Positions 7,030 through 36,901 of a DNA stretch of 45,160 nt are shown piece by piece (position 1 is the stretch's first letter; every line of letters begins with the position of its first letter). The notes below the pieces were generated by a model. It ran no database searches and was not told where the DNA came from. It was given only the letters and a program-made list of their open reading frames with translations. Source of the DNA: a virus; the IMG/VR virus record IMGVR_UViG_3300036822_000149, positions 1-45,160 of that record; one strand, written 5' to 3'. A program made the position numbers and the translations under genes.

Positions 7030-8127
7030 TCAGAGCAATCGTCGAAACACGTCCACGGCATCCTGAAGTTTGCCGCTGCTCGCCAATCGGCGCTGTGCGT
7101 CGTCGAAGCCTGACCTGCGTCCATTCCCGCTAAGGGGGGTAGCGGCGCCGGGGGTCAACGTCTTGCCTCTGCTCGGATCCACAGGCTTGAGGCGGTTCGC
7201 CTGCATCCGGTCGTACTTGCTCGCCTTCAACAGGATGGTGAGCATCCTGGGGTCATAGACCGTGGCGACTTCATATTCGCTGAAACCTTCAGCCGCTGCG
7301 GTCTTGCGCATCGACTGGAGATTCTTCTTCAGCGTCGGCTCATCCGGCAACGTCTTGATGTTGCGCATGACGAACTGCGAGAACCCATCTACTGCAAATT
7401 TCTGCACCCGTCTATCGTTCTCGGCCGCGATCTCCGCTTCACGCTGGGCCCGTATCTGACGCGACATCGCCAGCTTGTTGTAGATGGTCTGGAAAACCCT
7501 CTGCTGCGCATGCGCAGCGCGCGGGTCACGCGCGAACTCGGCGTCCCAATCCGGCTCTTTCGGCGTCAGGTTAATCAGATCCTCTTCGTAGTCCTGGCGC
7601 GCCTTGTTCCAGATCGCCCAGCCATGCTTCAGCCGCTGGTAATCGGCCTCGAGCTCCTGCGTCGCTGCGTTGACCTGCGCCATGCGCTTGTGGAACGTCT
7701 CCTGGCGGACGTAGCCGTTGAGCGCCTCCTGCAGCGACACCTCTTGCGGCTGGCCGTCGACGGTGACCTCGTAGCGATCGCCGTTATCGTCGTCCTGGGA
7801 CGATGTTTCGTCGTCCGAATCGACCTCCCCGATCGATTCCGGCTCGCGCTCGACGTCTTCGACCTCGTCGTCTTCCGGCTCGCGGCGCGCAGATCGGCGC
7901 TCTTCGCGACCATCGGCAATGTCGCGCTCCCGCGCGCGTAGTCCCTCATTGTCGCCGCCGTCGCGCGTATCGCCGGTTAAAGGATCGCCCTCGATCGGCC
8001 GCGCGCCGAACATCGGCTCCGGTTTCGAAGTGGTGGCGACGAACTTGCCGCCCTGATCGCGCGGCCGACTCTGTGGCGCAACCTCTGTCGCAAACGCCTG
8101 TGCGGCGTCATCCAGTCCTTCGGGCAC
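7030..8127 (-). CDS. Scaffolding protein
   Basis: This 365-residue, highly charged protein lies directly upstream of the major capsid gene. The first 120 residues are disordered and acidic (DDEVEDVEREPESIGEVDSDDETSSQDDD region). The middle (about 125-265) is predicted to be helical or coiled-coil, and the C-terminus is basic (GNGRRSGFDDAQRRL). Acidic N-terminus, coiled middle and basic tail are typical of phage scaffolds that template the procapsid and then leave. The start is a GTG at 8127 that overlaps the preceding gene by 20 bases. Confidence 0.8.
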   Translation of the reverse strand: MPEGLDDAAQAFATEVAPQSRPRDQGGKFVATTSKPEPMFGARPIEGDPLTGDTRDGGDNEGLRARERDIADGREERRSARREPEDDEVEDVEREPESIGEVDSDDETSSQDDDNGDRYEVTVDGQPQEVSLQEALNGYVRQETFHKRMAQVNAATQELEADYQRLKHGWAIWNKARQDYEEDLINLTPKEPDWDAEFARDPRAAHAQQRVFQTIYNKLAMSRQIRAQREAEIAAENDRRVQKFAVDGFSQFVMRNIKTLPDEPTLKKNLQSMRKTAAAEGFSEYEVATVYDPRMLTILLKASKYDRMQANRLKPVDPSRGKTLTPGAATPLSGNGRRSGFDDAQRRLASSGKLQDAVDVFRRLL

Positions 8128-32463: not shown

Positions 32464-32727
32464 GTGAAATGCCAGCGCTTTTTCCGGCCGAAGAAGAACG
32501 GCGTGGTGGTCAACGAGCAGATGCCGATCGCCACCGGGGCCGAGCCGGGGACGATCGATCCGACTGCTTGGCAGCCCTACAAGGTATGGATGGCGGACCT
32601 CTGGATCTGCGAGGGCTGCGGTGTTGAAATCATTTACGGATTCGGCGCTCACCCGGCGGCTGAGCACTACGAGCCGAAGTTCGCCGAAGCGATGAAATAT
32701 GTCACTCACACTGTGAACGATTGCTGA
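32464..32727 (+). CDS. Zinc-ribbon-like phage protein, start codon apparently lost
   Basis: From the GTG at 32464 the protein has 87 residues with KCQRFFRPKKNGVVVNEQMP and CEGCGVEIIYGFG. The frame upstream encodes KPIC, which would complete a CVKC knuckle, with GGAGG at 32436-32440. No start lies between; removing one C at 32447 would create an ATG in frame. The gene may start at an odd codon, or carry a base insertion or sequencing error. It overlaps the helicase ATG by 1 base. Confidence 0.55.
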   Translation: MKCQRFFRPKKNGVVVNEQMPIATGAEPGTIDPTAWQPYKVWMADLWICEGCGVEIIYGFGAHPAAEHYEPKFAEAMKYVTHTVNDC

Positions 32728-34151
32728 TGAGCACGCTCGATCCGGTTCAGCTTGCGGCTCTGGACTTCGCCCGCGACAAGCCAGGCGTCGGCTGGTTTTT
32801 AGAGCAAGGGCTAGGAAAAACCTTATGCGCGCTGGCCGAGTTCTCTTGGTATCAGCAGCTGGAAGAAGCATCGAGAATGATCGTTGTTTGCCCCAACACG
32901 TTTAAACAGGGTTGGGTGGATGAGATCGAAAAACACGGATTCCATTTCAACATCCATGTTTTTCGTTCATCGAAGAAAAAAGAAGCGCAAATCTTTTTTG
33001 GCCAGAGAGTGACGCCCTTTAACAAACCTTGGGTTCTGATCATCAATTATGAAGCGCTGCGAATGCCCGCGGTGCTCAAAGTTGTGGCGACCTGGGCTGG
33101 CATGGGTAAGACCTACCTGGCGATCGACGAGTCGATCCAGATCAAAAGCCACAAGGCCGCGCAGACGCGCGCTGTCCACAAGCTCGCGCCGCTATGCGCC
33201 TTCGTCCGCCTCCTGACCGGCCGCCCGCAGACACAAGGCCCGCATGATCTCTGGGGCCAATTGCGCGCCATTGGGCTTTACACCGACCGTAATTTCTATG
33301 CTTTCCGCGGCGCATTTTGCGTCATGGGCGGCTGGCAGGACAAGGAGGTGATTCGGGCCAAGAACACCGAGATCCTGGCCGAAGCGATGGCCCCCTTCGT
33401 TTTCCAGGCGAAGAAATCAGCCTGGTTGCCGGAATTGCCGCGCAAGGATTACACCATCCGCGATTATGCGATGTCGACCGAGCAGCTGGCTCAGTACAAT
33501 CAGATGGAGCAGCAGTTTTTGCTCTATCTCGAGCATAACGTCGTCACTGTCGACGTGGCGATCGCCAAATACGCCAAGCTGGCGCAGATCCAGACGGGCT
33601 TCATTTACGACGAGCAGGGCTACATCCATGAACTCGTCAAACCAGCGGAGAACCCGCGGCTGAATCTCCTGCGTCAACTGCTGGAGGAGGAAGTCGCCGG
33701 CAAGTGCTGTGTCGTCTACCGGCATCGAGCGGTGCTCGACGTGCTGGCCAAGGCGCTGAACGCCTATTGCGGCGCCTGGATCAAGGGCGGGATGAAGCCC
33801 GAGGAAATCGAACAACAGAAGGCCCGCTTTAATAAGGATCCGTTTTGCCGGGTTATTTTACTCCAAGCCGATGCCGCAAAATATGGCCATACCCTTTTGG
33901 GCGGCCCCGGTCCGGACGACTTGTGCCGAACCATGATTTTTTTCGAGAACAGCTATTCGGCCGATACGCGCGACCAGATAGAGGATAGGATCCATCGACG
34001 CGGCCAAACGGGGGAATCAGTGCTGTACATCGATCTTTCCGGCTCCGATCTCGATCGGCGCATTGTCAAAGCGTTGCAGAGGAAAGACGCACTTTACAGA
34101 TCCGTGTTCAAAAACCTCAAAGCCGCAGCACCCATAGGAGAAACAGCATGA
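32727..34151 (+). CDS. SNF2/DEAD-type helicase
   Basis: This 474-residue ATPase has Walker A EQGLGKT (26-32), DEAH-position motif AIDES (132-136), motif III LLTGRP, and C-terminal motif VI QIEDRIHRRGQT. The two RecA-like lobes are intact. Related phage proteins accompany replication and recombination genes (as T4 UvsW-like or SNF2 helicases) and remodel forks or R-loops. The ATG overlaps the previous TGA (TGATG). Confidence 0.85.
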   Translation: MSTLDPVQLAALDFARDKPGVGWFLEQGLGKTLCALAEFSWYQQLEEASRMIVVCPNTFKQGWVDEIEKHGFHFNIHVFRSSKKKEAQIFFGQRVTPFNKPWVLIINYEALRMPAVLKVVATWAGMGKTYLAIDESIQIKSHKAAQTRAVHKLAPLCAFVRLLTGRPQTQGPHDLWGQLRAIGLYTDRNFYAFRGAFCVMGGWQDKEVIRAKNTEILAEAMAPFVFQAKKSAWLPELPRKDYTIRDYAMSTEQLAQYNQMEQQFLLYLEHNVVTVDVAIAKYAKLAQIQTGFIYDEQGYIHELVKPAENPRLNLLRQLLEEEVAGKCCVVYRHRAVLDVLAKALNAYCGAWIKGGMKPEEIEQQKARFNKDPFCRVILLQADAAKYGHTLLGGPGPDDLCRTMIFFENSYSADTRDQIEDRIHRRGQTGESVLYIDLSGSDLDRRIVKALQRKDALYRSVFKNLKAAAPIGETA

Positions 34152-34855
34152 AATTCCTTCTCGCCGCCGCCCTTCTCGCCGCCGCCACGCCCGCCAATGC
34201 GGCGCTGCAGGTCGCATTCAGCGACGGCGCCAGCAAGTTCTTCTGCGCCGATCAGACCTCTTGCGATTTGGATGGGCAGGTGAAAAACGTGCTCTTGCTC
34301 AACACCATGGTTGGCGACATCCGCATCGAGGGCACCTTCGTCGCCTCGTCGACCAGTCCCGACGAACTGTCGGTCAGCAACCTCACCATCACCAATCTCG
34401 GAACCAGCACTCAGACGCTGTTGATGGCGGCGGGCGACATCGGCTTTGTCGGGCCGATCGCCGCGATCCGCTCGTCGGGCAGCGGCACCTTCAATAATGA
34501 TGTCGGCGGCTCCGGCAACGTGGTGTTCTTCGCCTCGCCGTCGAACACCCAGCCAGCGGCGTTCTCGACCGATCTGCCAGGTCAGCAGCTGTTCACCACC
34601 GGGCTCTTGGTGACGAAAGCGCCGAGCAGTTTTGCGGGCGACAAAACGACGCCGTTCAGCGCCAGCGGGCCGTTTTCGATGGCTGAAGGAGCGGCGATCA
34701 CGCTGCGCGCCGGAGCTTCGATCACCGGATTTAACGAAAGTATGGCGACTGCGGCTATCCCTGAGCCATCGACCTGGGCAATGATGATCATCGGCGCTGG
34801 CCTTCTGGCTAGTGTAGGGTGGAAGAAGCGCCGACAAGCCCGTCTGGCGTTTTAA
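34148..34855 (+). CDS. PEP-CTERM surface protein
   Basis: This 235-residue protein has a cleavable signal peptide (1-18, ending PANA) and a full PEP-CTERM tail: PEP at 205-207, WAMM, hydrophobic helix to about 225, and KKRRQAR (226-232). Bacterial exosortases recognise this signal and anchor or release the protein at the cell surface. The mature part is Ser/Thr/Gly-rich and beta-like, with two Cys (about 36 and 43). GGAG lies seven bases before the ATG, which overlaps the helicase stop. PEP-CTERM proteins are bacterial; a phage-encoded one suggests surface modification of the host. The role is inferred. Confidence 0.85.
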   Translation: MKFLLAAALLAAATPANAALQVAFSDGASKFFCADQTSCDLDGQVKNVLLLNTMVGDIRIEGTFVASSTSPDELSVSNLTITNLGTSTQTLLMAAGDIGFVGPIAAIRSSGSGTFNNDVGGSGNVVFFASPSNTQPAAFSTDLPGQQLFTTGLLVTKAPSSFAGDKTTPFSASGPFSMAEGAAITLRAGASITGFNESMATAAIPEPSTWAMMIIGAGLLASVGWKKRRQARLAF

Positions 34856-34869
34856 GGAGGAGCGAAGCG

Positions 34870-35367
34870 ATGCCGAGAGTCACTGGTGGTTGGTTAGAAT
34901 TTGGAGACGGCGGGCGTCCCGACCAGGGACTTCCCGGCGGCAATCGTCCTGGCGGGCGCCCCGGCGGCGGCAATCGCCCCGGCGGCGGGGTTGATCCGGA
35001 CTGGGGCATCGATGAAGGCGAGGGCGGCGGCGGACATCCGGACCAGGGGCTTCCGGAACCGCCTCCTGGGGTCTGGCCCGGTCCGACGCCGTCGCATCCG
35101 ATCGTCCCGGTGCCGCCGGATGAGCCGGCCGAGCCTGGCACTATTTGGCCGCCAGCGCCGAGCTCGAGCGGCAAGTTCTGGGTGGTGGCGGGGATCCCAG
35201 GCCATGGCTGGCGTTACATCTGCATCGACGTCAGCCTGAAACCCGACCAGGGGTTGCCGAGTGGCGGCGGGGAGCATCCCCAGCCGCCAATGGCGCCGGG
35301 TGGACAACCAAGCCAGCCCATTCAACCGGGCGGCCAGCCGCAACCGCTAGGCGCGCGTCGGCGCTAA
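34870..35367 (+). CDS. Gly/Pro-rich protein with conserved core
   Basis: This is a 165-residue protein. PDQGLP occurs three times with GGNRPGG-type repeats. A folded core (GKFWVVAGIPGHGWRYICIDVSL, about 114-136) is recognisable in many phage low-complexity proteins of this kind. Function is unknown; possibly virion-linked or secreted with the PEP-CTERM neighbour. AAGGAGG precedes the ATG, and a terminator follows. Confidence 0.6.
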   Translation: MPRVTGGWLEFGDGGRPDQGLPGGNRPGGRPGGGNRPGGGVDPDWGIDEGEGGGGHPDQGLPEPPPGVWPGPTPSHPIVPVPPDEPAEPGTIWPPAPSSSGKFWVVAGIPGHGWRYICIDVSLKPDQGLPSGGGEHPQPPMAPGGQPSQPIQPGGQPQPLGARRR

Positions 35368-35453: not shown

Positions 35454-35528
35454 ATGGAATTTTTCTTAGCAATGCTAATCGTTTTTGCGATATTCGCGGC
35501 AATCAACGCATACAACAACACACATTAA
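35454..35528 (+). CDS. 24-residue single-helix membrane peptide
   Basis: The peptide MEFFLAMLIVFAIFAAIN continues to YNNTH; residues 3-18 form one hydrophobic helix. GAGAGG lies seven bases before the ATG and a promoter-like element precedes it. An in-frame ATG at 35439 would add five residues. It may be a toxin-like or regulatory membrane peptide. Its stop overlaps the convergent ejection-protein stop. Confidence 0.5.
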   Translation: MEFFLAMLIVFAIFAAINAYNNTH

Positions 35529-36901
35529 AACGTCCCCCTTGCTCCAGCCGCCATGGTGGCCTGACGCAACGCGTCGCCCACGGTCATTAAAGGGCCAGGT
35601 TGGCTGAACAAGCTCGGATGGAGATTCTCTCCGGTAGAGTTGAGATGCTGCGCGGCGCGCAGGGCATTATTGATCGGCGCCTCGCGAAGTGTCGCTTTGA
35701 CAGCGGGTGTGGCCGAACCAACGATGGCTCCCGCTACCGGGCCGCCTGCGACCGAAGCAATTCCGCCTGTGGCGGTCTTCGCACCTATATTGTAGATAAA
35801 ATTACGAAACCATGACGGATCCTTCGTCTGCCCAATCTTATTCAAAGCATCAAAGAGTCCCGGCTGAGTGTTATACAAGTTAGGATCCTTGGCCAGCGCC
35901 CCCTTGATCTGAGCCGGTGCGTTTTTTGGATCCTGCAGCCACCCGCTAATGTCGCGATCGGTTTTCATGACGTTGGTGGCGGAATTGGCGTTCTGAAGGA
36001 CTGACGACTCGTTGGGCCCAAGCGCGCCGTCGAGCGCGCTCGAAAATCGATTGGCGAGCCGCTGTTCTGGCGTGCTGCGCCAAGCGCCAACCTCATTGCG
36101 CGCGGCGTTTTGAATTGCGTCCTGAAATTTGGACACATCATCGACAGTCATTGGAGCGCCGCTGAGAGTTCGTCGTCCTACGCTGTTAATCGCGCTATTC
36201 AGCGGCCCTTTCGCAATTTCTTGTTCGCCTTCCGTCAGACCCTGCTTTGTCCATCCCAGCGCGTTGGCGAGATCCTGCGCGTTCACCGGAGTCTGCTGCG
36301 CCGTCTTCCAGGCCGCCTGATTGGCCTGCTTGAGCTCGTCGGCCGAGCGGCCTACCGGCGCTTCGCTCGAGCCAGGGCCAAGGACAGCGCCCGTGCCGCC
36401 GCCGATCAGCGCGCTCTTGCCAATGTCGCTGGCGCTGCCGCCATGACCAGCCGTGCCCGCGGCAGAGATCGCGCCCTGCTCGGCCGCGCCGCCGATCCGG
36501 TTGGCGACGAAATTCGCCACCCCAGAGCTCGCGTCGCCAATGTACGGCAGAACTTTCCCGGCGACGTAGCGTCCAGCGCCCAGCGCCTCGCCGCCCGCGC
36601 CGGTGCCAGCCATGCCCAGCGCCTCACCCGCGCCTTGCCAAGGGGTGCCCTTGAGCCGCTGCTCGGCGCCCGCCTCGTCGAAAGCATTGCCGAGAAACGG
36701 CACCTGATCGGCGGCGCGGCGGCCAATGTCGGCAATCGTCCCTAAGTTCATGGGAACCGGCTTCGGGGCCTTTAGACCGAACAGCGGCGCGGCTGGGCCA
36801 AGCTGGTTCGACCAGAAACCAGGATCGTCGGAACTGGCTGTGGCGGACTGTGTATTATCAGTCGCGAACGGATCGTGATCGACAGGGGTGAAAGTGGCCA
36901 T
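35525..36901 (-). CDS. Putative ejection/internal virion protein
   Basis: This 458-residue protein is rich in Gly and Ala. It has hydrophobic segments (SDIGKSALIGGGTGAVLG; KTATGGIASVAGGPVAGAIVG) and a helical middle (PVNAQDLANALGWTKQGLTEGEQEI). Such proteins lie last in podovirus structural operons and form the DNA-ejection channel in the host envelope. The start overlaps the previous gene by 1 base. Confidence 0.6.
   Translation of the reverse strand: MATFTPVDHDPFATDNTQSATASSDDPGFWSNQLGPAAPLFGLKAPKPVPMNLGTIADIGRRAADQVPFLGNAFDEAGAEQRLKGTPWQGAGEALGMAGTGAGGEALGAGRYVAGKVLPYIGDASSGVANFVANRIGGAAEQGAISAAGTAGHGGSASDIGKSALIGGGTGAVLGPGSSEAPVGRSADELKQANQAAWKTAQQTPVNAQDLANALGWTKQGLTEGEQEIAKGPLNSAINSVGRRTLSGAPMTVDDVSKFQDAIQNAARNEVGAWRSTPEQRLANRFSSALDGALGPNESSVLQNANSATNVMKTDRDISGWLQDPKNAPAQIKGALAKDPNLYNTQPGLFDALNKIGQTKDPSWFRNFIYNIGAKTATGGIASVAGGPVAGAIVGSATPAVKATLREAPINNALRAAQHLNSTGENLHPSLFSQPGPLMTVGDALRQATMAAGARGTF

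Follow-up and report, generated by a model that had tools for sequence, protein, structure and literature searches.

The viral record IMGVR_UViG_3300036822_000149 was analysed over its whole length, a linear window of 45,160 bases that encodes a terminase large subunit, portal, scaffold, major capsid protein, DNA ejection protein, tail fibres, endolysin and primase. With virion, terminase and replication genes present, the record therefore represents a tailed phage. At about 35.5 kb its plus-strand genes meet the virion module, which is convergent and on the minus strand (Table 1), and in the lineage of this phage the replication strand is closed by a small gene whose ATG shares the sequence ATGA (34148-34151) with the stop codon of an SNF2-family helicase gene. 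Host contamination of the assembly can be ruled out, because identical synteny recurs across many metagenomes.

The small gene encodes a protein with the organization of a bacterial PEP-CTERM protein. An initial annotation made from the DNA letters alone had claimed a signal peptide, PEP motif, hydrophobic helix and basic tail in that order, as well as a Shine-Dalgarno sequence (AGGAG) and the overlap with the helicase, and all of these are present. The predicted signal peptide reads MKFLLAAALLAAATPANA, and the motif lies within IPEPSTW at residues 204-210; the calls of signal peptide and transmembrane helix rest on hydropathy and the structure model (not SignalP or TMHMM). Between them is a body containing 23% Ser+Thr and two cysteines, C33 and C39, which are invariant among the relatives that we refer to as body family A.

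Table 1. Features of the PEP-CTERM locus and its neighbours (positions in the 45,160-base window).
Feature	Coordinates	Strand	Details and basis
SNF2-family helicase (SNF2/Helicase_C)	32721..34151	+	Upstream, translationally overlapping; syntenic anchor in relatives
Shine-Dalgarno AGGAG	34136..34140	+	7 nt 5' of ATG; sequence
Phage PEP-CTERM protein P0001 (body family A)	34148..34855	+	ATG start, 235 aa
Predicted Sec-type signal peptide	34148..34201	+	Residues 1-18, ends ANA; sequence, hydropathy, relatives, model helix
Predicted beta-sandwich body	34202..34756	+	Residues 19-203 (185 residues); model, sequence
PEP motif	34760..34768	+	Residues 205-207; PF07589 and TIGR02595 above cut-off
Predicted transmembrane helix	34775..34822	+	Residues 210-225 (hydrophobic); sequence, model helix 207-233
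Basic tail KKRRQARLAF	34823..34852	+	KKRRQAR = residues 226-232; sequence
Gly/Pro-rich PDQGLP-repeat protein	34870..35367	+	~15 bp downstream of PEP-CTERM gene; no signal peptide
Convergent gene of virion module	35525..36901	-	Conserved in relatives; ends plus-strand module

Both models proposed as a check on the protein score above their curated cut-offs: PF07589 gives 32.3 bits against 20.7 (residues 203-229), and TIGR02595 gives 20.8 bits against 16. The PF07589 match is the only one in the whole record (E 3.3e-10), and 14 control genomes have none. These scores confirm the prediction of a phage-borne PEP-CTERM protein. A chance motif was considered and rejected because of the E value, the single match in the record and conservation among relatives. 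NF035944 (PEPxxWA) matched over positions 1-17 of its 24 with 31.8 bits where 35 are required, and on this profile the protein is not assigned to the PEPxxWA-CTERM class. In the model of the bacterial system, PEP-CTERM proteins are exported by Sec, retained by the helix, released by exosortase and delivered to the surface or the exopolysaccharide (PMC12188702), where they link exopolysaccharide and cell surface (PMC12188702, PMC9850573).

Relatives were chosen among viral contigs by the helicase alone, yielding 13 contigs, one of which ends within the helicase. All 12 contigs with readable flanks contain a PEP-CTERM-type gene adjoining the helicase or one gene further downstream, encoding a protein with a signal peptide, PE-x-x-TW, helix and basic tail; the homologues in related phages for which the initial annotation had proposed a search are thus present throughout this set. 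In three of the 12 (L002, 8727-9422; L027, 8208-8981; L029, 8643-9437) there is a second, tandem PEP-CTERM gene with a body unrelated to the first, and a tandem second gene also occurs in L127 (6730-7527). L002 has, in addition, a fibre-like gene without a Pfam match (7232-7984) between the helicase and the PEP-CTERM gene.

The nearest isolate by portal and helicase is Ochrobactrum phage vB_OspP_OH (Wolominvirus, MT028492), which resembles the record in having the helicase followed by convergent virion genes, but differs in that the gap between helicase and convergent gene is empty and the PEP-CTERM gene is absent. A tblastn search of 50,697 records of isolated phages with a 35-residue artificial consensus tail, a weak query for this purpose, found no PEP-CTERM gene.

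Searches with tail-free profiles, built from alignments that ended before the tail, recovered 115 viral loci through the body, 49 of family A and 66 of family B. The tripartite tail (PE-x(n)-W/L, helix, basic end) is present in 94 of the 95 distinct full-length proteins of the two families, and hydropathy places a signal peptide on all 92 with an assigned start. Loss of the tail in all close phage relatives, which the initial annotation had named as grounds for abandoning its proposal, is thus the opposite of what was found. Identical end modules (signal peptide and tail) are carried by unrelated bodies across the phage proteins. The two families were also considered as remote homologues, and this was rejected, the profile comparison having aligned the signal-peptide region only.

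The motif itself is PEP in 75 of the 95 full-length proteins, PEA, PET, PES or PEL in 19, and neither in one. That one, L223 (1339-1995), has a family B body whose C-terminus has been swapped to VPGPVVGAGLPG-helix-TRRKARG in place of PEP. Its tail was examined as a possible host sorting signal, an idea left unsupported by a pattern that matched once in 297 Hyphomicrobiales genomes. In L128, L133 and L158 a family A body ends in a classical VPEPxxLGxLGLG-type tail instead of PEPSTWAM, which suggests another host or exosortase type. A scan of viral contigs for PEPxTWAM gave at least 119 stretches, and further body clusters of 10 and 4 members were seen among the matches listed; some of the singleton bodies may come from host DNA bordering prophages. 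One further body family (ATQITVDNIGAVLNESLALP...) is found on at least 10 phage contigs (L295, L313, L324, L343-L346, L354, L357 and L363).

The variation at the motif, with about one-fifth of tails reading PEA, PET, PES or PEL and L223 having no PEP-like motif, counts against the view that exosortase acts on these proteins. It would agree with a periplasmic protein tethered in the inner membrane that excludes other phages by blocking entry of their DNA, with no role for exosortase; the topology alone is compatible with such a protein, and the residues after the motif drift as those of a plain anchor would, their mean identity being 40% in both families. A plain anchor, however, needs neither P-E-x-x-T-W retained on unrelated bodies in 94 of 95 proteins nor its match to the tails of host proteins, and we regard this explanation as unlikely. 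Sorting by a host exosortase is, on the predicted signals, the reading that we consider quite probable.

The bodies of both families are under purifying selection: median body dN/dS is 0.13 in family B and 0.37 in family A (with dS near 1), and mean body identity is 88% and 62%, respectively. Cysteines are also patterned by family, there being exactly two in each of 45 family A bodies and none in any of 47 family B bodies, which fits predicted export. The constraint on the body bears on the idea that the phage protein is a decoy or competitor, flooding exosortase or displacing host PEP-CTERM proteins and so loosening flocs or biofilm, with spread of progeny or access to further cells as the gain. 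Flocs, biofilms and the attachment of cells to polysaccharide do require host PEP-CTERM proteins (PMC9850573, PMC12188702), and the tail is retained while bodies vary. Conservation as strong as that of family B would nevertheless be needless in a pure decoy, which is disfavoured because the body is constrained, and we think it improbable that the protein acts in this manner.

The predicted structures give some idea of what the conserved body may be. AlphaFold2 models the protein of the record (pLDDT 81.5) as an all-beta body flanked by one helix at the N-terminus and another, at residues 207-233, at the C-terminus; the family B body is likewise all-beta (pLDDT 73.5), and both are modelled as beta-sandwiches. 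The top structural neighbours are beta-sandwiches of adhesins and glycan-binding proteins: the Epf adhesin (Z 9.2), SGBP-B (Z 9.1) and CBM61 (Z 8.7). Comparison with the carbohydrate-binding modules CBM61, CBM4 and CBM51 gives TM scores of 0.3-0.5, a weak resemblance, and the PDB contains no convincing sequence relatives of the bodies. Because the best Z value, about 9, is near the values of 7-8 that are common, the models offer only a hint of a lectin-like role.

The position of the locus differs among phages. In those whose capsid is 79-85% identical to that of the record (e.g. L145 and L187) the gene lies between terminase and portal, and in L128 and L133 between the portal and capsid genes. 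It is found elsewhere in phages having none of the searched proteins in common with the record, where genes for phage primase, DNA polymerase, tail fibre, terminase, portal and capsid are among those around it. Of the 44 records sized 15-80 kb, 35 give a single PEP-CTERM match and seven give two within ~2 kb; the remaining two have no match to the Pfam model, the body nevertheless being present. By these matches, phages of different kinds thus normally have one PEP-CTERM locus, at differing places.

Expression timing is unreadable from position because the locus sits at different places in different phages, and early expression, which the initial annotation had implied, does not hold as a general rule when the gene follows the helicase in some phages and in others lies on either side of the portal gene, towards terminase or towards capsid. 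The variable position, which gives no consistent timing, also counts against the proposed delivery by host exosortase to the phage's benefit. The placement between terminase and portal or portal and capsid genes in many relatives would suit a late release or envelope-weakening protein acting with lysis or virion genes, an explanation that is very unlikely given that there is no lysis-like domain and that in the lineage of the record the gene overlaps the helicase and ends the replication strand.

The gene downstream of the PEP-CTERM gene encodes a protein rich in Gly and Pro that contains PDQGLP / PVDPDYGIDEG repeats. For 32 of 92 PEP-CTERM genes a partner of this kind, with no signal peptide, is encoded on the same strand no more than 350 bp away, versus 23 of 522 control genes at the same loci (Fisher p 3e-15, uncorrected for relatedness), and examples come from different phage types (L132, 4176-4559; L145, 5275-5910; L163, 607-1308; L183, 5077-5784). 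The association suggests that the two genes form a cassette.

Exosortase (PF09721) is encoded by none of 51 phage records, and its absence from all of them points to the host as the source of the enzyme; by the same comparison, the many soil phages, this one included, that carry the tagged protein without the sorting enzyme probably rely on a host exosortase. Eight of nine searched bacterial genomes with the same tail type do have exosortase, and because it is missing from the phages and present in these bacteria an exosortase-bearing host is implied, in agreement with the prediction of the initial annotation. The VPEPSTWAMM tail consensus is common to the phage proteins and to Bradyrhizobium, Rhodoblastus and other alphaproteobacteria, and the tail also matches those of Sphingomonas. 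Tetranucleotide likeness, too weak a signal to assign a host, is highest for Bradyrhizobium and other alphaproteobacteria, and the nearest isolated phages infect Ochrobactrum and Sinorhizobium. Among 297 Hyphomicrobiales genomes, by contrast with the eight of nine above, exosortase is rare, being present in 16 (~5%); capsid relatives occur in 10, and no PEP-CTERM gene was seen in eight prophage-relative regions. Our best guess from these sequence comparisons is an alphaproteobacterial host, probably of the Hyphomicrobiales, that has exosortase.

Bacterial genomes also bear on whether the gene is simply a passenger, a copy of a host PEP-CTERM gene that is useless for infection. Several of the bodies that occur only once among viral contigs seem to come from hosts, and L235, a distant relative of the body (E 4e-6), is a chromosomal PEP-CTERM protein. 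Against this, families A and B occur on many phage contigs but hardly at all in 289 alphaproteobacterial genomes, in which family A has one weak relative (the chromosomal PEP-CTERM protein) and one marginal one, and family B none. The differing loci, the usual single locus per phage and purifying selection also speak against it, and we consider a passenger role quite unlikely.

Like the PEP-CTERM proteins of the bacterial exosortase (EpsH) system, the phage protein combines a signal peptide, PEP, helix and basic tail with a small Ser/Thr-rich body without known function. Unlike them, it is phage-encoded, with family A and B bodies that are essentially phage-specific and no exosortase alongside, and a phage normally has one PEP-CTERM locus per genome where candidate hosts have up to 40 matches. 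Phages are known to encode superinfection-exclusion or surface-conversion proteins, including T5 Llp, N15/phi80 Cor, P22 SieA and lambda Lom/Bor, which are envelope proteins from small genes outside the core modules, as the PEP-CTERM protein here is predicted to be. Their anchoring is by lipoprotein, outer-membrane or plain membrane attachment, and we know of none with an exosortase signal. The portion of the open-licence literature on PEP-CTERM/exosortase and phages that was available to us yielded no report of phage-encoded PEP-CTERM families. The sorting tag and its enzyme are known from bacteria; use of the tag by phages appears to be new.

By sequence analysis, then, the gene belongs to the phage, its predicted sorting signals are complete, selection acts on both, and the phage supplies no enzyme. 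Its processing, final location and benefit to the phage we infer as follows. The host Sec machinery would export the protein and the C-terminal helix would retain it in the inner membrane, where a host exosortase would cleave it at the PEP motif. The mature beta-sandwich protein would then enter the host exopolysaccharide or outer surface, and the altered envelope of the infected cell would most likely hinder adsorption of further phages, or of the phage's own progeny to cells or debris. That the protein is a substrate of host exosortase, delivered to the surface or exopolysaccharide so as to alter the envelope to the phage's benefit, is a proposal we regard as evenly balanced. The initial annotation had suggested blocked superinfection or altered receptors as the effect; the more specific idea that the benefit lies in control of superinfection or readsorption is tentative and somewhat doubtful.

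More broadly, soil phages of several unrelated types may share a mobile PEP-CTERM cassette, often with the PDQGLP partner, that takes over host exosortase and so remodels the surface or matrix of the infected cell, and we see this as having about an equal chance of being right or wrong. If true, a virus would for the first time be seen to use the exosortase pathway, and the cassette would mark phages whose hosts bear exosortase. Confirmation would mean that phages modify the host envelope by an exosortase route and would give a handle on the function of PEP-CTERM proteins, a predictor of host range for uncultured soil phages, and possibly a new kind of superinfection or biofilm control.
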